From IMG/VR virus record IMGVR_UViG_3300045996_000932, positions 1 to 40,532 of that record: DNA of 40,532 nucleotides, one strand, 5' to 3'. Position 1 is the stretch's first letter. Every line of letters starts with the position of its first letter. Origin of the DNA: a virus. The position numbers were made by a program, and so were the translations under genes. This document shows, one piece after another, positions 2,596-40,532 of this stretch. The notes under the pieces were generated by a model. The model was given only the letters and a program-made list of their open reading frames with translations. It searched no databases and was not told the DNA's origin.

Positions 2596-2997
2596 ATGAA
2601 AACGCCCGGCAGAAAACCCCCAACTGGGGGGCACCTCTTTCAGAAGGGGAACAAGCTTGGAGGCCGCAAGCCGATCCCGCCCGACGTTAAAGAGATAGCT
2701 CGTGGCCTCTCGCCCGCTGCAATCACAACGCTTGGCGAGATCATGAAGGACAAGGGCGCGACCGCTGGCGCCCGCGTCTCGGCCGCCGCCACCATCCTAG
2801 ACCGAGCCTATGGCAAGGCCCCGCAGCACATCACGATGGAGCGCGTCGAAGACCTGACCAATGCAGAACTCGCAGACGAACTCAACACCGTCATCGCTGG
2901 ACTACGAACGCTCGGCGTTGATGCAACGCTTTCGCAGCCTGAGCGAGGTGGTTCAGGCACGGGCGACCCGCAAGCGGGTTCTAGGGTCACTCATTGA
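2596..2997 (+). CDS. Terminase small subunit (putative)
   Basis: 133 residues. The N-terminus GHLFQKGNKLGGRKPIPPDV followed by helices with ATAGARVSAAATILDRAYGKA is typical of the phage small terminase-like proteins that precede the large subunit. It would recognise the packaging site and load DNA into the motor. It overlaps the large-subunit gene by about 77 bases if that starts at 2921. The start lacks an obvious Shine-Dalgarno but fits the family's usual N-terminus. Confidence 0.75.
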   Translation: MKTPGRKPPTGGHLFQKGNKLGGRKPIPPDVKEIARGLSPAAITTLGEIMKDKGATAGARVSAAATILDRAYGKAPQHITMERVEDLTNAELADELNTVIAGLRTLGVDATLSQPERGGSGTGDPQAGSRVTH

Positions 2998-4390
2998 GTA
3001 TGCCCGGCTAGCGGGCTTTGAGCCGGCCGCACATCATAGGCTTCTGGTTCGTGACCTGGAAGCGGTGGCGTCGGGGCATGTTGAAACGCTGATCATTGAA
3101 ATGCCTCCGGGGTCGGCAAAATCGACCTATGTTAATTTTTTGTTCCCCGCATGGTTTATGTCTAACAACCCAGAGCTTAACGTTCTGACGGCCTCCCACT
3201 CCTCAGAGTTGGCTGAGAGATGGGGGAGGAAGACGCGCAATTTAATGGTCGAGCATAGCAAGACAACGGGCATTCATTTATCGGATGATAGTTCTGCGGC
3301 CTACAGGTGGGCCACGGAGAAGGGGGGCGAATATTATGCTGTGGGTGTGGGCGTCGGCATCGCTGGTTACCGGGCTGATATCGGGATCATTGATGACCCT
3401 TTTGGCAGCCGCGAGGATGCGGAAAGCAAGAGGATTAGAGACAAGCGTTGGGAGTGGTATACCGACGACTTCAGCAGCCGACTCAAGCCCTCGGCTCGTC
3501 GGGTTATCTTGCACACTCGATGGCACGACGACGACTTGGCTGGTCGAGTTAAACGGCAGCTCGCCGCACTTGGAAGGCCACACATTATCCTCAGACTGCC
3601 AGCCGAAGCCGAAACTCACGACCCACTAGGGCGTTCACCTGGTGAGCTTTTGTGGGATGATCCGGGGGGATACAACTATGGCGCATTCCTACGAGCGCGT
3701 AAGCAGGAGAGCGATAGTCGCACGTGGTCTAGCCTCTACCAGCAGAACCCCGTGCCCGACACTGGTGACTTCTTCAAGGCCGAGTGGCTCTTTCCGGTCG
3801 ACAATGCGCCGCCTAGAGAGAGCCTTAGGCTATACGGGGCCAGCGACTACGCAGTCACATCTAACGGAGGGGATTATACGGTTCATGTCATCCTTGGCCT
3901 GGATTATGACGGCAACCCGTATCTGGTTGATCTCTGGCGTCAGCAGGCTGCGTCGAATGTATGGGTCGACGCCTTCTGCGAATTGGTCAAGAAGTGGGAA
4001 CCGCTGGATTGGGCAGAGGAGCAGGGGCAGATTAAGAGCGCTCTTGGGCCCTACATCGAACAGAGGATGATTGAGCTTGAGGCTTATACCGCGCGGCACC
4101 AGTTTCCTACCAAGTATGATAAGGCCGTGCGGGCACAGTCATTTCGTTCCCTCATTGCGACCCGAGGGCTGCGCTACCGAGGCAACGCGCCGTGGCGAGC
4201 AACTTTCGAGAACGAGTTATTGCGCTTCCCGGCCGGTATACATGACGACATCGTCGATGCCTGTGGCTTGGTGGGTCAGTTGGTCGACCAGCTAACGACG
4301 CCTGAGCGGCCCAAGGTTGAAAAGCCTGTGTATTCAGGGTATCGGTCGGTAAGCGACCACGCGTCCCCCATGTCGGTGAAAGACCTATGA
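2921..4390 (+). CDS. terL: Terminase large subunit
   Basis: 489 residues from ATG 2921; ATG 2861 is an upstream in-frame alternative inside the small-subunit gene. Walker A MPPGSAKST is at about 61-69, Walker B IGIIDDP at about 154-160, and the motor coupling segment includes LHTRWHDDDLAGR near 200. The C-terminal nuclease shows ASDYAV (Asp about 309), WAEEQGQ and HDDIVDA (about 441-446), the acidic residues of the RNase H-like headful nuclease. It cuts and packages DNA into the prohead. Base composition is clearly richer in A+T than the portal gene (23 of 60 G+C at 3121-3180), suggesting separate origin. It ends in an ATGA overlap. Confidence 0.93.
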   Translation: MQRFRSLSEVVQARATRKRVLGSLIEYARLAGFEPAAHHRLLVRDLEAVASGHVETLIIEMPPGSAKSTYVNFLFPAWFMSNNPELNVLTASHSSELAERWGRKTRNLMVEHSKTTGIHLSDDSSAAYRWATEKGGEYYAVGVGVGIAGYRADIGIIDDPFGSREDAESKRIRDKRWEWYTDDFSSRLKPSARRVILHTRWHDDDLAGRVKRQLAALGRPHIILRLPAEAETHDPLGRSPGELLWDDPGGYNYGAFLRARKQESDSRTWSSLYQQNPVPDTGDFFKAEWLFPVDNAPPRESLRLYGASDYAVTSNGGDYTVHVILGLDYDGNPYLVDLWRQQAASNVWVDAFCELVKKWEPLDWAEEQGQIKSALGPYIEQRMIELEAYTARHQFPTKYDKAVRAQSFRSLIATRGLRYRGNAPWRATFENELLRFPAGIHDDIVDACGLVGQLVDQLTTPERPKVEKPVYSGYRSVSDHASPMSVKDL

Positions 4391-4554
4391 GCATTGCCCC
4401 CGCCCTCTTAGTCCTTGCCGATGGGGGCGAGCGGTATGTGGGGCTCACGCGGTCATTGGCAGGCGCTTCGCTGATTGAGTTTTGCGGGCGCATGTTCCAG
4501 CGGACGGCCGAGACGACGCGCGGCGGCTGGCCCGTCTACAGGGAACCCAACTGA
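4387..4554 (+). CDS. Small hypothetical protein between terminase and portal
   Basis: 55 residues (begins MSIAPALLVLADGGERY). It is linked to both neighbours by overlaps: ATGA with terminase and TGATG with portal, a strong sign of translation. It has a CGRMFQRTAETTRGGWPVYR stretch and no recognisable domain. Small proteins in this position occur in several podovirus genomes, but the role is unknown. Confidence 0.65.
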   Translation: MSIAPALLVLADGGERYVGLTRSLAGASLIEFCGRMFQRTAETTRGGWPVYREPN

Positions 4555-9517: not shown

Positions 9518-12078
9518 TGTCGACCATTGCAGGCATCGAGGCCGTTGAGCTTCTAGCTTCCGCAGACCCAGCTCTGGCCGATGCCGTTCGCAAGCGTGGC
9601 CGCAAGCCGGTTGTCGAGCGCACCGCAGCGCAGCCTCTGACCATCAACGGGATCGAGGGTGTCATCTTCGCCGCCGCCTCAGGCGGGCCGGGAACGGTCT
9701 TTCGCCTTGATAGCATTGACCAAGCGGCGGCCTTGGCGGCAAGGCACCGCGGCCAGCGTGTCGTTGTCGTGGTCGATAGCTCTGGCTCCATCGTGGCCTC
9801 TGCGCCCGCAGCGCCGGTCAACACGGTCGCTCCTGCCATCACGGGCACCCTGATTGAGGGCCAGACCCTCACGGCCTCTACGGGCACGTGGACGGGCTCT
9901 CCGGCGCCTACCTACACCTACCAATGGCAGGCCGACACGGGCGGCAACGGCACCTTCGCCAACATCGGCGGAGCGACGAATAGCACCTACCTGCTGACGA
10001 GCGGCGAGGTAGGCGACGACGTGCGCGTTGTGGTCACGGCCACCAACGCATCGGGCGCGGTGTCTGCCAACTCGGCCGAGACGGCCACGATTGCGGCCCT
10101 CGACACAACCCCGGCCGCCTTCTCGTTCACCGACATTACGGATGCCACGCTCTCGACGGTCTATGAGAGCAACACGATCACGGTCACCGGCATCAACGGC
10201 ACGGCCACGGTCACGATCACGGGCGGCGAGTATAGCCAGAACGGCGGCGCCTACACGAGCAGCGCCGGGACCGCTGTGGTCAACGACACCTTCAAGGTGC
10301 GCCATACCTCATCCGGGAGCAACTCGACTGCGACGAACACGGCCCTCACGATCGGCGGCGTCTCGGACACCTACACGACCACGACCGCAGCGGCTGCTGA
10401 CACGACACCGGACGCCTTCACCTTCACTGACATTACGGACGCGACCGTCTCGACCCTTTACGAGTCGAACACCATCACGGTGACCGGCATCACTGCGGCT
10501 GCCAACCTCACGATCACGGGCGGCGAATACTCGATCAACGGCGGGGCCTATGCCTCATCGGCCACGACCGTTGTCGTTAACGACACGGTGAAGGTGCGGC
10601 ATACCTCATCGGCATCGAACAGCACAGCTACCAATACCGTGCTGACCATCGGCGGCGTGAGCGACACCTACACGACAACCACAGCCGCGGCGGGCGACTG
10701 GTGGGAGGACGCGGCATACGACAACCAGTCCGTCATCGCAGACTTCAACAACAACCGGTATGCGCTGCCTGCTGAGGTTGAACTGATTACGAATGGCGAC
10801 TTTAATGGGAGCGCGACCGGGTGGACGCTCACCAATGTTGCCTACAATGCCGGGGCCATTGAAGACACAATTGGGGGCGCAAACGGCACGGCGGTCCAGT
10901 CGATTTCTCTCGTTGCGGGCAATTTGTATATTGTCACTTATACAGTTGTTTCAGTAAGTGGGGCAAATGTACAAATTCAGTTTACTGGGGGCACAGCTGT
11001 TTCGGGAACGTCCCGTTCTTCTCCTGGCACATATACGCAGTATCTTACGGCGCTATCTGGCAATAATGCCGTCCGTATTCAAGGCACTTCGTCTGCTGCT
11101 CTATGGAATGTCGACAACGTTTCCGTCAAAGAGGTGAACCTCACCGCCAGCGGTGGCGTCTACCCCAAGCGCTCTGCCACCTTTGACGAGGTGTTCGCCT
11201 ACACGGCGGCGAGCACGACGGCGCGCACGTATATCGCGTCTGGCGGCACCATGATGAACGACCTTGCCGTCAACGCCCCCCGCTTCACCTACATCAACAC
11301 CGACCGGCAGTTGCGGCTGGAGAGCGCGGCGACGAACGTTTTCCTGAATAGCGCGACAGGCGTGACACAGAGCATAAGCGTCACCGCACAGGCTTACACG
11401 CTGTCGTTCTATGGGACGGGAACCATTACCTTAAGCGGCGTCTCAACGGCGGGTCCGCTGGTTGGGACGGGTGCGAACAATCGTGTCAGCCTCACCCTTA
11501 CGCCAACAGCCGGTAGCTTGACCCTAACTGTGTCTGGGACGACTACCAACGTTCAACTAGAGGCGTCATCCTTCGTCACCGATTACATTCCAACAGCAGG
11601 TGCCTCAGTCACGCGCGCCATTGAGACGGCCCGCTTCAGCCCGCTGATTGAGGCTATCTTGCAGCGGACGGCGGCGAGTGTGGTAGTGCGGGCTGATCTG
11701 ACCAACACGGGCGCAACAGATCGCAGGTATATGGGCGGAGCGACTACCGTTGCGCTGGCCTTTGCCGATGCTACGGCGACGGTCGTTGGTGCGACGAACG
11801 CCACGAATGAAGTTACGGCTACCATTGGCGGGGCGGGGAGCAACGCGAACGCTCTAGGCGTTGCCTTGGGTTACGATGGCAGCGGCCGGTCGCTGACGGC
11901 GAACGGCGGGACAGTGGGGACCGACGCTAATACGGCTGGCAGCCTGACAACCGTTTACCTAGGGCGCGACACCACGAATGCGGCGGGCACTTACGGCGAC
12001 GGCTACTACGATTACGTCGCCATTTCGCCCGAGCGCCTGCCCGACGCAACCCTAATAGCCCTCGCGGTGGCAGCATGA
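9517..12078 (+). CDS. Large Ig-repeat adhesin or fibre protein
   Basis: 853 residues from GTG 9517. After an N-terminal region of about 100 residues comes an Ig-like domain (APTYTYQWQ, about 105-195), then two tandem repeats of 99 residues (about 196-392), each with FTDITDAT, YESNTITVTG and VRHTSS. Residues about 425-540 form a carbohydrate-binding-like module starting LITNGDF and ending WNVDNVSVKEV, encoded by A+T-richer DNA. The C-terminal 300 residues resemble phage lectin-like folds (RFTYINTDRQLRLESAATN, YGDGYYDYVAISPERL). It probably binds host surface glycan. It overlaps the next gene by ATGA. Confidence 0.75.
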   Translation: MSTIAGIEAVELLASADPALADAVRKRGRKPVVERTAAQPLTINGIEGVIFAAASGGPGTVFRLDSIDQAAALAARHRGQRVVVVVDSSGSIVASAPAAPVNTVAPAITGTLIEGQTLTASTGTWTGSPAPTYTYQWQADTGGNGTFANIGGATNSTYLLTSGEVGDDVRVVVTATNASGAVSANSAETATIAALDTTPAAFSFTDITDATLSTVYESNTITVTGINGTATVTITGGEYSQNGGAYTSSAGTAVVNDTFKVRHTSSGSNSTATNTALTIGGVSDTYTTTTAAAADTTPDAFTFTDITDATVSTLYESNTITVTGITAAANLTITGGEYSINGGAYASSATTVVVNDTVKVRHTSSASNSTATNTVLTIGGVSDTYTTTTAAAGDWWEDAAYDNQSVIADFNNNRYALPAEVELITNGDFNGSATGWTLTNVAYNAGAIEDTIGGANGTAVQSISLVAGNLYIVTYTVVSVSGANVQIQFTGGTAVSGTSRSSPGTYTQYLTALSGNNAVRIQGTSSAALWNVDNVSVKEVNLTASGGVYPKRSATFDEVFAYTAASTTARTYIASGGTMMNDLAVNAPRFTYINTDRQLRLESAATNVFLNSATGVTQSISVTAQAYTLSFYGTGTITLSGVSTAGPLVGTGANNRVSLTLTPTAGSLTLTVSGTTTNVQLEASSFVTDYIPTAGASVTRAIETARFSPLIEAILQRTAASVVVRADLTNTGATDRRYMGGATTVALAFADATATVVGATNATNEVTATIGGAGSNANALGVALGYDGSGRSLTANGGTVGTDANTAGSLTTVYLGRDTTNAAGTYGDGYYDYVAISPERLPDATLIALAVAA
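10102..10695 (+). repeat. Two tandem 297-base Ig-like coding repeats
   Basis: The units start at 10102 and 10399 (both GACAC) and encode 99-residue repeats with the same block order. They are diverged at third positions, so the duplication is not recent, or is maintained by selection on the protein. Confidence 0.85.
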
Positions 12079-36430: not shown

Positions 36431-36530
36431 ACATTTTGATCCCCTCCAAGCCGCCCTTATTGGTCCAGACGATGGCGCTCTTGCAAGAGGGGAAGGAGTG
36501 GCTGGTTCCGAGTTCGTAAGAGAGGTTCAT
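36414..36530 (-). CDS. 38-residue hypothetical protein
   Basis: ATG 36530 sits in CGGAGACACGACATGA, overlapping the stop of the gene before it. Product starts MNLSYELGTSHSFPSCKSAI and ends GIKMYARQL. The shared leader sequence is the strongest evidence that it is translated. Confidence 0.55.
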   Translation of the reverse strand: MNLSYELGTSHSFPSCKSAIVWTNKGGLEGIKMYARQL

Positions 36531-36727
36531 GTCGTGTCTCCGTGGCCCTCCGAAGCGAGACGATACAGGCGGGCGTGTTTCATTGCCCAGCACCAAGTCA
36601 CCATCTGGTCCCGCTGCCCGCTGATTACGCGAACGCGGGCCTTACGCGCCACGTCAAGCATCTTGGCGTGACCTTCGTTTGCCATGCGGCGGCGAGCGGC
36701 GTTATCAACCCAGCCTTGAAAGATCAT
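36527..36727 (-). CDS. First gene of leftward operon, small basic protein
   Basis: 66 residues from ATG 36727, right after the leader ACTGCAACGGAGACACGAC. MIFQGWVDNAARRMANEGHA, then KARVRVISGQRDQMVTWCWA. Many Arg and Met, helical. It is the first leftward early product from the promoter at 36753-36781. Function unknown; tiny early proteins often target host factors. Confidence 0.65.
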   Translation of the reverse strand: MIFQGWVDNAARRRMANEGHAKMLDVARKARVRVISGQRDQMVTWCWAMKHARLYRLASEGHGDTT

Positions 36728-36752
36728 GTCGTGTCTCCGTTGCAGTGATGGC

Positions 36753-36781
36753 AAGATGCACTGTCCATCAGATAGTGTCAA
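36753..36781 (-). promoter_or_regulatory. Leftward early promoter with embedded operator
   Basis: On the minus strand TTGACA (36776-36781), 17-base spacer, CATCTT (36753-36758). The spacer and -10 are covered by an operator-like sequence (36756-36776) that matches the one at 40317-40337 at most positions. A repressor bound here would block this promoter. The rightward regulator gene starts 64 bases away. Confidence 0.6.
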
Positions 36782-36844: not shown

Positions 36845-37048
36845 GTGACGACACCCCGAGACATATCTGAGACACGAGCCTTGCTCGGAGAAAGTCAGAG
36901 AAAATTCGCAAAACGCTTCGGCGTCAATCAAGCCACCATCAGCCGCTGGGAGGCTGGCATCAAGGGGCCGCCCGAGAGGGGGCCGGCCGCGATGGCGGTT
37001 CAACAGATAATTCGCAACCTTCGGAGAACCCGCTGCAATGATGTATGA
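36845..37048 (+). CDS. XRE-type helix-turn-helix regulator
   Basis: 67 residues from GTG 36845 with AGGAGA seven bases upstream. TRALLGESQRKFAKRFGVNQ followed by ATISRWEAGIKGPPERGP is a canonical HTH_3 with recognition helix ATISRWE. Small, single-domain, Cro-like. It is divergent from the leftward operon and is the obvious candidate to bind the shared operator. Only regulator of this kind in the window. Confidence 0.85.
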   Translation: MTTPRDISETRALLGESQRKFAKRFGVNQATISRWEAGIKGPPERGPAAMAVQQIIRNLRRTRCNDV

Positions 37049-37484
37049 TCTGAGCGACGAACCCAAGACCGTCGAAGAGATGGCCGAGCGCTATAAGGCC
37101 GCCGCCCGGCGCATGAAAATGCGCGATCCGACGAGGCCCCCGCCTGTCGTGTTCACGCCCAAGCCCAAACCAGAGCCCAAGCCGGAACCCGTGGTAGAGC
37201 ACGTGCCCCACCGTCTGCCCGATATGCCAGACCGGGTGCGCGACATAATCCGCGACGTCGCCAAGCGGCACAATATCTCGCTTGCGTTCATGCTCTCCCG
37301 CAGCCGGATGCGGCCCGCCGTTCGGGCCCGACAAGAGGCCGAGTGGCTGCTGTATGTCGTCGGACAGGGCCGCTGGTCCACCACCCTCATAGGCAAGTGG
37401 ATGGGAGGGCGCGACCATACCACCGTGATTAACTCGATCCGGATCGCAAGCCGCTGGATGGGGGCTGTCGATGCCGCGTGGTAA
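37038..37484 (+). CDS. DnaA domain IV (DnaA-box-binding) protein without AAA+ domain
   Basis: 148 residues. After a flexible part with a KPKPEPKPEP stretch (about 40-50), residues about 62-140 match DnaA domain IV: VRDIIRDVAKRHNISLAFML, SRSRMRPAVRARQEAEWLL and the signature GGRDHTTV (123-130). That domain recognises TTATCCACA. There is no Walker motif, so it cannot form a DnaA ATPase filament. It could mark the phage origin, compete with host DnaA or act as regulator. It overlaps its neighbours. Confidence 0.88.
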   Translation: MMYDLSDEPKTVEEMAERYKAAARRMKMRDPTRPPPVVFTPKPKPEPKPEPVVEHVPHRLPDMPDRVRDIIRDVAKRHNISLAFMLSRSRMRPAVRARQEAEWLLYVVGQGRWSTTLIGKWMGGRDHTTVINSIRIASRWMGAVDAAW

Positions 37485-37878
37485 CCCCGAGGCCGTGTTG
37501 CAGAGCACCATTGTGGCAGGCTTGAGGCTAGGCCTACCACATGGGTTCGAGGTTTGGCACATACCGAATGGAGGAAAGCGCAGCCCCCGCGAGGGGGCTC
37601 TTTTTAAGAAGATGGGCGTCACGGCAGGGGCTCCAGACATCATCATCCTTGGGCAAATCGACGGCGAGCCTCGCGTCTGGTTCTTTGAGGTGAAGGCTGG
37701 GACTATGAAACGGCCCACCGATGTTCAGATGATCTTGCACGATAGACTCCGCGACCTTGGCTTCGAGGTGGCCGTGGTCCGCTCGTGGACCGAGGCTCTA
37801 AGGGTCTGTAATCTTTGGAAGCTGCCCCTGCGCTTTGCACGGGAGTATTTGACGGAGGCAAGCGATGGCAATACCTGA
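37471..37878 (+). CDS. VRR-NUC domain nuclease
   Basis: 135 residues. EVWHIPNGGKRSPREGALFK, MGVTAGAPDIIILG and VWFFEVKAGTM contain the Asp and E-x-K of the VRR-NUC branch of PD-(D/E)XK nucleases. Stand-alone phage members cut branched DNA or act with replication genes. It overlaps both neighbours. Confidence 0.88.
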   Translation: MPRGNPEAVLQSTIVAGLRLGLPHGFEVWHIPNGGKRSPREGALFKKMGVTAGAPDIIILGQIDGEPRVWFFEVKAGTMKRPTDVQMILHDRLRDLGFEVAVVRSWTEALRVCNLWKLPLRFAREYLTEASDGNT

Positions 37879-38368
37879 ATGGCTAAAGGAAGCCGCCCGG
37901 CGGCGGACGGTCCTCCACGCCGGCAAGCCCAGCCAGAGACTTGGCGGAAAGGACCACGAAGTGGTCGGCATCGCTGGCGAGTATCGCTTTGCCCAGCTTT
38001 TCGAGGGGCTGGTTGTGGACACGGCCGTCAAGCCGAGCGGGGACGCCGGCATAGACTTTGTGGCCGCGTTCGATGTTGTCGGCGCGCCTACCGAGTTCAA
38101 GATTGACGTTAAGACGGCTCGCAAGCCTCACTATCTGCTCGTCAAGCCCGGCGACCTTCGGGCCGATATCTACGTGCTGGCCGCCTACGACGACGAGCGG
38201 GAAGAGGCGAGCATCGTCGGATGGGCATGGAGGGCTCATGTAAGGATGGCCCCGGTCAAGGTGCTGGGTGACTGCCCGCCGTCGCACGCGGTCCCCAAGG
38301 AGCACCTGAGGCCCATTGGCGAGCTTCTGGAGCGGTATGCGCCGCCCTTGACGGAAGAGACAGCATAG
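37865..38368 (+). CDS. PD-(D/E)XK-like protein
   Basis: 167 residues. VVGIAGEYRFAQLFEG, a GDAGIDFVAA Asp and FKIDVKTARKPHYLLVKPG (Asp, Lys at the E-x-K position) outline a restriction-endonuclease-like core; ADIYVLAAYDDE follows. The C-terminal part (CPPSHAVPKEHLRPIGELLE) is common in such phage proteins. Probably a nuclease or Holliday-junction factor; exact substrate unknown. ATG at 37865 overlaps the VRR-NUC gene. Confidence 0.65.
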   Translation: MAIPEWLKEAARRRTVLHAGKPSQRLGGKDHEVVGIAGEYRFAQLFEGLVVDTAVKPSGDAGIDFVAAFDVVGAPTEFKIDVKTARKPHYLLVKPGDLRADIYVLAAYDDEREEASIVGWAWRAHVRMAPVKVLGDCPPSHAVPKEHLRPIGELLERYAPPLTEETA

Positions 38369-38438: not shown

Positions 38439-38498
38439 ATGCGATTTAGTGCGCGAAACATAGCGCCTTCTGACGACAATCACAAGACCGCCCTGTGA
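38439..38498 (+). CDS. 19-residue leader peptide
   Basis: ATG 38439 has AAGGAG seven bases upstream, the strongest ribosome-binding site in the area. The product MRFSARNIAPSDDNHKTAL ends in a GTGA overlap with the initiator gene, which has no site of its own. Likely a coupling leader that sets initiator level. Confidence 0.5.
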   Translation: MRFSARNIAPSDDNHKTAL

Positions 38499-39292
38499 CC
38501 ATCCTTCGCCGCGAGGTGAGGCATCGCTTCACCACGATAGACAACGGCCTCGTTGAGGACCCTCGTCTGTCGCCGGAAGAACTCGGCCTGATGGTCTACC
38601 TGCTATCCAAGCCTGACAATTGGTCAGCCCAGCCGGCCGAGCTTATGAAGCGGTTCGATATGGGCAGAGACAGGTGCTACCGCATCATCAAAGACCTGAT
38701 TGACAAGGGCTGGCTAGAGAAGCGGGAAAACCGCACCAGCGAGGGACAGTTTCAGGGGATAGAGTATATAATCAAGGAGGAAAACCCGCTTCCGGGAAAC
38801 CCGCATGCGGTTAAGCCGATTGCGGAAAACCCGGACTCTAATAAAGACTTAGAGATAACAAAGACTGAGAATAACAAACACTCTGTGCCCGCTAAGGCGG
38901 GCCGTGTGTCGGTTTCTAAGAAACCTCGTTATCAACCCGCCTTTGACGAGCTATGGGGCGTCTTCCCCAAGCACCCGAACGCATCCAAGTCGGCTGCGTT
39001 CATGCTCTGGATGAAGCTGGACGCCGAAGACGCCATTGACTGTTTCCGGGGAGCCCAGTGTTACGCCTCGTTTCTGGCTGCCGAGCGGCTCAAGCGCCCA
39101 GATTATCCAGGCCTTCACCTAGCGACGTTTATCAGCCAGCGCCGATGGGAGGCGCACCTAGAGGCCCGTGTGTTGCAGAACGGCAACGGTCACGCGCCGC
39201 AAACCGAAGAGGAGAAACGAGCCAAGATACGCGAGCTGCAACTGAAGATTTACGGCAAAGCTTTCGAGGAGCACCCCCATGAACATCAGTGA
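38495..39292 (+). CDS. Replication initiator, winged-helix O-like protein
   Basis: 265 residues from GTG 38495. The N-terminal 85 residues form a winged-helix domain (FTTIDNGLVEDPRLSPEELG, MKRFDMGRDRCYRIIKDLID, KGWLEKREN) as in DnaD/phage O-type initiators. The middle is a low-complexity linker with ENPLP, GNPHA, VKPIA and ENPDS units encoded by iterons. The C-terminal domain (FDELWGVFPKHPNASKSAAF, HLATFISQRRWEAHLE) likely recruits host helicase. No phage helicase or polymerase is present, so host replication machinery is presumably loaded here. Confidence 0.78.
   Translation: MTILRREVRHRFTTIDNGLVEDPRLSPEELGLMVYLLSKPDNWSAQPAELMKRFDMGRDRCYRIIKDLIDKGWLEKRENRTSEGQFQGIEYIIKEENPLPGNPHAVKPIAENPDSNKDLEITKTENNKHSVPAKAGRVSVSKKPRYQPAFDELWGVFPKHPNASKSAAFMLWMKLDAEDAIDCFRGAQCYASFLAAERLKRPDYPGLHLATFISQRRWEAHLEARVLQNGNGHAPQTEEEKRAKIRELQLKIYGKAFEEHPHEHQ
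38779..38882. other. Putative replication origin: four 15-bp iterons and A+T-rich tract
   Basis: Units begin at 38779, 38794, 38809 and 38824 at exact 15-base spacing, with core GGAAAACCCGC (third copy degenerate). A related GGGAAAACCGC lies at 38724. Immediately after follows an A+T-rich stretch (38836-38882). Iterons inside the initiator gene next to an A+T-rich melting region is the lambda ori design. Confidence 0.7.
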
Positions 39293-40029: not shown

Positions 40030-40265
40030 CGCATGGACCAGAGCGGGGAGCCGCCGTTGTCGAAAGCCTTGGCGCGGGTGACGGTGGCGCCGGTGCAGCG
40101 GGCTAGCATCATCTCATGACGCGCCACAATCCACACTTGGCCGAGGTAGAACCGGAAAGCGTCGGCGTAGGTCTCGCTAACCAGCTTGCACTTCCTCGCC
40201 CGCCGATGGGCGTCCCGGACGATGGCGGAGAGATCGTAACGGCCTGCGGTAACGAATTGCGACAT
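40026..40265 (-). CDS. Small leftward protein under strong promoter
   Basis: 79 residues from ATG 40265 with GGAG in leader GCAGGAGACAAGACATG. MSQFVTAGRYDLSAIVRDAH, RRARKCKLVSETYADAFRFY, then IVARHEMMLARCTG. Basic, mixed fold, no domain recognised. It is convergent with the replication operon and has its own near-consensus promoter, so early, abundant expression is likely. The complete form of the gene cut at the window start. Confidence 0.7.
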   Translation of the reverse strand: MSQFVTAGRYDLSAIVRDAHRRARKCKLVSETYADAFRFYLGQVWIVARHEMMLARCTGATVTRAKAFDNGGSPLWSMR

Positions 40266-40288
40266 GTCTTGTCTCCTGCTGTGGTTTG

Positions 40289-40317
40289 TTTATAGTCCCG
40301 CTCGGACCCCATGTCAA
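40289..40317 (-). promoter_or_regulatory. Strong leftward sigma-70-type promoter
   Basis: TTGACA (40312-40317), 17-base spacer, TATAAA (40289-40294) on the minus strand: near-perfect consensus. It reads into the gene starting at 40265, 24 bases downstream of the -10. Confidence 0.8.
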
Positions 40318-40351
40318 TGCACCGTGCATCAGATAGTTGGCCTGCGGATAA
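40317..40351. promoter_or_regulatory. Operator-like site and DnaA-box variant
   Basis: ATGCACCGTGCATCAGATA begins at 40317 next to the -35, and TGCGGATAA (40343-40351) is a one-mismatch DnaA box. Together they occupy the space between the leftward promoter and the rightward SNase-like gene, so both directions could be controlled here. Confidence 0.5.
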
Positions 40352-40354
40352 CTC

Positions 40355-40532
40355 GTGCTGCTAGAACTCATGCTCGCTACTGCCCTGGTGACGGTGACGG
40401 ACGGCGACACCATCCGGGCCAACGGCGAGCCTTACCGCCTGGTCGGGTTCAACACGCCTGAGCTATCCACGGGCAAGTGCGAGGCCGAGCGCAAGCTTGC
40501 CACCCAGGCCAGAGTGAGGCTGCAGCAGCTGG
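40355..40532 (+). CDS. SNase-like nuclease, second copy, truncated at window end
   Basis: The first 59 codons of the gene at 167. The codon equivalent to ATG 167 is GTG here; the internal ATG is at 40370. VTDGDTI and GFNTPE are preserved. It is cut by the end of the contig and does not represent a second gene in a circular genome. Confidence 0.75.
   Translation, partial: MLLELMLATALVTVTDGDTIRANGEPYRLVGFNTPELSTGKCEAERKLATQARVRLQQL

Follow-up and report, generated by a model that had tools for sequence, protein, structure and literature searches.

We describe a stand-alone DnaA domain IV protein of 148 amino acids that is encoded on the plus strand at positions 37038–37484 of a viral DNA sequence of 40,532 nucleotides (IMG/VR record IMGVR_UViG_3300045996_000932; hereafter the window is this whole stretch). 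The domain is C-terminal, following a short helix and a Pro-rich linker, and is present without an ATPase or an oligomerization domain. We tentatively favour, at somewhat less than even confidence, a role as a passive reader of DnaA boxes that would act mainly on the DnaA sites of the host, as a competitor or a regulator. Two close rivals, a helper role at the origin of the phage and a GafY-like transcription regulator, are nearly as good.

Pfam matched PF08299 (Bac_DnaA_C) to residues 68–135 of 148 (E value of 1.8e-12; 47.5 bits against a cut-off of 31.5) and no second domain, and in a search of its own genome the protein scored 48.7 bits against the same family. These spans, together with the contact residues, place domain IV proper at residues 68–135 (37239–37442, plus strand). 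Among structures in the PDB, phmmer identified 1j1v, E. coli DnaA domain IV (E value of 2.6e-5). An AlphaFold2 model, for which six relatives from other viral contigs served as input, has high confidence over residues 65–147, a low-confidence helix at residues 12–25 (37071–37112, plus strand) and then a disordered Pro-rich linker at approximately residues 31–56. The top solved structure for this model in Foldseek was again 1j1v, in which domain IV is present with a DnaA box (probability of 1.00, rmsd of 1.1 Å and TM score of 0.68 on the target). Both Pfam and the model show domain IV only in the 148 residues, with the AAA+ ATPase domain III and domain I of full DnaA absent; no PHROG family was assigned. 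The first-pass annotation had read this protein as a DnaA box-binding domain without the ATPase and had named structure prediction as a check. The GGRDHTTV signature that it reported is present, the Pfam, phmmer, AlphaFold2 and Foldseek results bear out the reading, and the best structural match of the model is domain IV itself.

Some of the positions at which domain IV contacts the box were those that we take to make contacts in the 1j1v structure. The others were drawn from the literature (PMC9638019). In E. coli numbering, the window protein retains R399, R407, Q408, D433, H434, T435, T436 and R442, and the G430–T436 stretch is also intact; Leu422 and Pro423 of E. coli DnaA are replaced by Thr, and Lys443 is not conserved. 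Across 27 phage homologues, positions 399, 407, 408 and 433–436 average 81% identity to E. coli, compared with 26% elsewhere. Many of these homologues were retrieved with a pattern that contained DHT, so conservation of D433–T435 among them arises partly by selection; R399 (retained in 78% of the 27) and R407 (89%) lie outside every pattern, and no pattern was used to find the GenBank phages. The D-H pair at 433–434 is retained in all 10 GenBank-phage proteins that were opened from a tblastn search. Because the contact positions are conserved across phage homologues, the window domain probably still recognizes DnaA-box-like DNA and could bind TTATNCACA, which makes action on host DnaA boxes plausible.

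Stand-alone domain IV proteins of phages are a kind already known from annotation, of which the window protein is one more, diverged member; the rarity that the first-pass annotation had implied is contradicted by how common they are. The tblastn search of a phage collection returned 43 records at E values of up to 1, some of which are apparently bacterial DnaA in unannotated records, and a viral structure library holds dozens of further examples from uncultured phages. Named carriers include Rhizobium, Aurantimonas, Bradyrhizobium, Sulfitobacter and Pelagibacter phages. In the 10 phage records opened, the product is domain IV without the ATPase, mostly 115–230 amino acids in length, usually encoded among replication and nuclease genes and labelled ‘DnaA C-terminal’, ‘DnaA-like’ or hypothetical. 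The proteins that we compared (AmM-1 gp63, phiGT1_62, RHph_N28_2 EVB88_078, RHph_TM3_3_3 EVB37_086, and those of Skadi, HTVC pelagiphages and Ssp-JY42) resemble the window protein in lacking AAA+, in keeping DHTT and in their early or replication neighbourhood, but are only about 27–44% identical to it and have other N-terminal parts; in AmM-1 gp63, a protein of 396 amino acids, the domain is at the N terminus rather than the C terminus. We found no functional study of phage stand-alone DnaA domain proteins in the literature. They receive only brief mention, one instance being a remark that they are conserved in HTVC010P-type phages (PMC6811365), and the phiGT1 papers do not discuss the DnaA-like protein of that phage.

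A motif like HYKAVRARL precedes the Pro-rich linker near the N terminus of the phage homologues from L002, L030, L035, L042, L044, L045, L054, L058 and L060, and could be a docking helix. The N-terminal helix of the window protein (residues 12–25) resembles this motif (P = 0.12). As a feature shared by the proteins at large, a docking motif [HR]Yxx(V/A)RxR(L/M) was rejected: it is significant in the subset of homologues and not in the window protein or the pelagiphages. In some carriers, the genome also specifies DNA methylases, together with cell-cycle proteins that are GcrA-like or GapR-like (DUF2312). Loci for GcrA-like or GapR-like proteins (DUF2312 or similar) were seen in module-carrying or related phages at L090 45505–46116, L094 37376–38050, L085 30676–30942, L086 15706–15954, L089 40531–41472 and L083 28154–28384.

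The gene belongs to a rightward early operon, in which it is flanked by the genes for a Cro/CII-like regulator and a nuclease and lies upstream of that for an O/DnaD-type initiator, all on the plus strand. The small regulator gene (36845–37048; HTH_3, 4.9e-7 in Pfam; PHROG transcription regulators) overlaps the start of the DnaA domain gene, and the two are probably translationally coupled. The gene for a VRR-NUC or Holliday-junction-resolvase-like nuclease (37471–37878; phrog_824, 1.2e-26; phrog_5702; VRR_NUC, 0.0022, which is below the cut-off) overlaps its stop. An ORF of 167 amino acids and unknown function follows in the same operon (37865–38368; a weak DUF5843 match only), and then the replication initiation protein (38495–39292; phrog_270, 3.1e-23; phrog_186, DnaD-like loader). 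ERF and YqaJ recombination genes lie on the opposite strand, and we regard the phage as lambdoid in type. Elsewhere, a probable structural gene contains a tandem duplication of about 297 bp (10102–10691), the two copies of which are 74% alike.

Searches with the initiator and the terminase yielded a single syntenic relative, L008 (IMGVR_UViG_3300045996_000566). Its DnaA domain gene also lies between a regulator and a VRR-NUC gene, its initiator is 49% identical to that of the window, and the DnaA domain proteins of the two phages share an N-terminal start, DLxxEP..Y/VEE. The L008 protein, which scores 36.3 bits against PF08299, is about 29% identical to the window protein and has LLSDHTT in place of GGRDHTT, with R399, R407, Q408 and DHTT retained.

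Origins of the lambda type lie within the initiator gene. The window initiator gene contains an iteron array with a 15-bp unit in 3.7 copies (38779–38833, plus strand; TRF score of 61) and, adjacent to it, an AT-rich array with a 17-bp unit in 2.6 copies (38839–38882, plus strand; 63% AT; TRF score of 60). Both are kept in L008, at 2996–3038 and 3046–3082, respectively. Iterons and an AT-rich stretch are thus found inside the initiator gene and conserved, as in lambdoid origins, and the two arrays are a candidate lambda-type origin; on this layout, phage replication is probably started by an initiator that the phage itself encodes.

Nine other carrier phages contain 6 TTWTNCACA sites where 16.5 were expected and five control phages contain 4 where 6.7 were expected, so there is at least no enrichment of boxes in the carriers, although the shortage there is not clearly different from that in controls. 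Neither exact nor relaxed DnaA boxes showed general enrichment in carrier phages.

The window protein shares its fold and DNA-contact residues with E. coli domain IV and differs from full E. coli DnaA in the absence of domains I–III, and thus of an ATP switch, an oligomer and origin opening. With no AAA+ domain to open origins, it would be expected to act by occupying DNA. Given intact box-reading residues and carrier phages that have no surplus of DnaA boxes, the main targets would most likely be DnaA-box-type sites on the host chromosome, such as oriC and DnaA-controlled promoters. Early in infection, the protein would compete with or displace host DnaA, and this displacement would favour phage initiation over host initiation. 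Action at host sites is supported by the presence of the phage’s own initiator and conserved origin-like array, and there is a prophage precedent in E. coli YfdR, which binds DnaA and inhibits initiation (PMC4776307). The cell-cycle proteins and methylases that some carriers encode are in keeping with it. It is weakened by the replacement of L422 and P423, by the lack of conservation at Lys443 and by a box shortage in carriers that does not clearly exceed that in controls. Gene order would fit equally well if the protein served phage replication or transcription.

A rather doubtful alternative, in which the protein would serve the phage origin, has it bind the iterons at 38779–38882 and help the O/DnaD-like initiator to load host DnaB. 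The iterons contain TGCGGTTAA and TGCGGAAAA, whose reverse complements differ from a DnaA box at two positions, and boxes with up to two mismatches number 6 in the window initiator gene compared with 2.4 in synonymous shuffles (P = 0.0025). The DnaA domain gene shares the operon of the initiator, and in other phages it lies near DUF1376 or O-like proteins, primases, helicases and resolvases. However, two-mismatch boxes are weak evidence, L008 shows no such excess (one such site lies in its array), most other carriers lack such box clusters by their replication genes, and the initiator itself would be expected to bind its own iterons.

It seems slightly less likely again that the protein instead regulates phage transcription, contacting RNA polymerase in the manner of GafY or GafA and thereby activating genes of the late or delayed-early class. 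GTA activators do use DnaA-like domains: GafY, which binds RpoD, and the N-terminal domain of GafA (PMC9638019, PMC11150451) resemble the window protein in having such a domain without the DnaA ATPase, in alphaproteobacteria. In several phages, moreover, the gene comes last in the early operon, just ahead of the terminase. Besides DnaA, the genomes of most Hyphomicrobiales species carry a shorter ORF with DnaA domain IV, and D-R-T-T replaces D-H-T-T in 14 of the 20 regions fetched. We take these 14 host proteins to be putative products of the GafY-type gene, which has been described beside gafA in Hyphomicrobiales (PMC9638019). In all 14 putative GafY proteins, His434 has become Arg and neither Gly430 nor Pro423 is present, whereas the window protein and the other phage proteins keep DHTT. 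The domain also occupies amino acids 15–55 of GafA, near the N terminus (PMC9638019), but is C-terminal in the window protein, and no GafZ/DUF6456 partner gene lies beside the window gene, which is followed instead by the nuclease, the 167-amino-acid ORF and the initiator. One Hyphomicrobiales region, L064, encodes two distinct stand-alone domain IV proteins (616–939 and 4001–4471), the smaller with a degenerate GNRDKSG.

The two ends of the window (positions 1–345 and 40189–40532) represent one locus, with about 95% identity between the copies, although the record is listed as free of end repeats. This overlap probably reflects a circular or permuted genome of about 40.19 kb that was assembled from two strains. 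This bears on the one exact DnaA box in the window, TTATCCACA at 155–163 on the minus strand, which the first-pass annotation had put forward as the target of the protein. The letters are present as described, but the equivalent position in the other copy (40343–40351, minus strand) reads TTATCCGCA, so the exact match has not been kept in both copies. Of 100 dinucleotide shuffles, 11 contain at least one such site; for the relaxed box TTWTNCACA, the count in the window is two compared with 0.87 expected. We judge the site to be a chance match and reject it as the target. Although it lies 7 bp downstream of an operator-like palindrome and just upstream of an SNase gene, it is highly improbable that the protein binds there to keep the divergent early genes in time with the replication cycle of the host, given a single, unconserved site near chance level and a published survey in which DnaA sites in alphaproteobacterial phages showed no positional bias (PMC9437464).

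The 19-bp palindrome, TGCACnGTnCATCAnATAG, is a better candidate for divergent early-gene control than that box. It has three sites in the window compared with 0.15 expected, all given on the plus strand: 130–148, where it reads TGCACCGTGCATCAAATAG, in the divergent promoter by the left end; 36757–36775, upstream of the early operon; and 40318–40336, the second copy in the terminal overlap. It is probably an operator bound by the HTH protein encoded at 36845–37048. A leader repeat, GGAGACACGACATGA (minus strand), was also seen at the beginning of several small genes on that strand (36527–36546, 36724–36743 and approximately 74–93).

Returning to the favoured reading, action on host DnaA sites, a broader form of it is possible, although we hold it with less confidence: the widespread truncated DnaA of phages may be a natural dominant-negative, the selected box-reading surface of which would cover host oriC and DnaA-regulated promoters, and the phage itself would replicate from an iteron origin that is free of boxes. 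Stand-alone domain IV proteins are widespread in phages, yet are simply labelled ‘DnaA’. If host initiation is indeed blocked or redirected in this way, they would be a simple and general tool with which phages control the replication cycle of their hosts.
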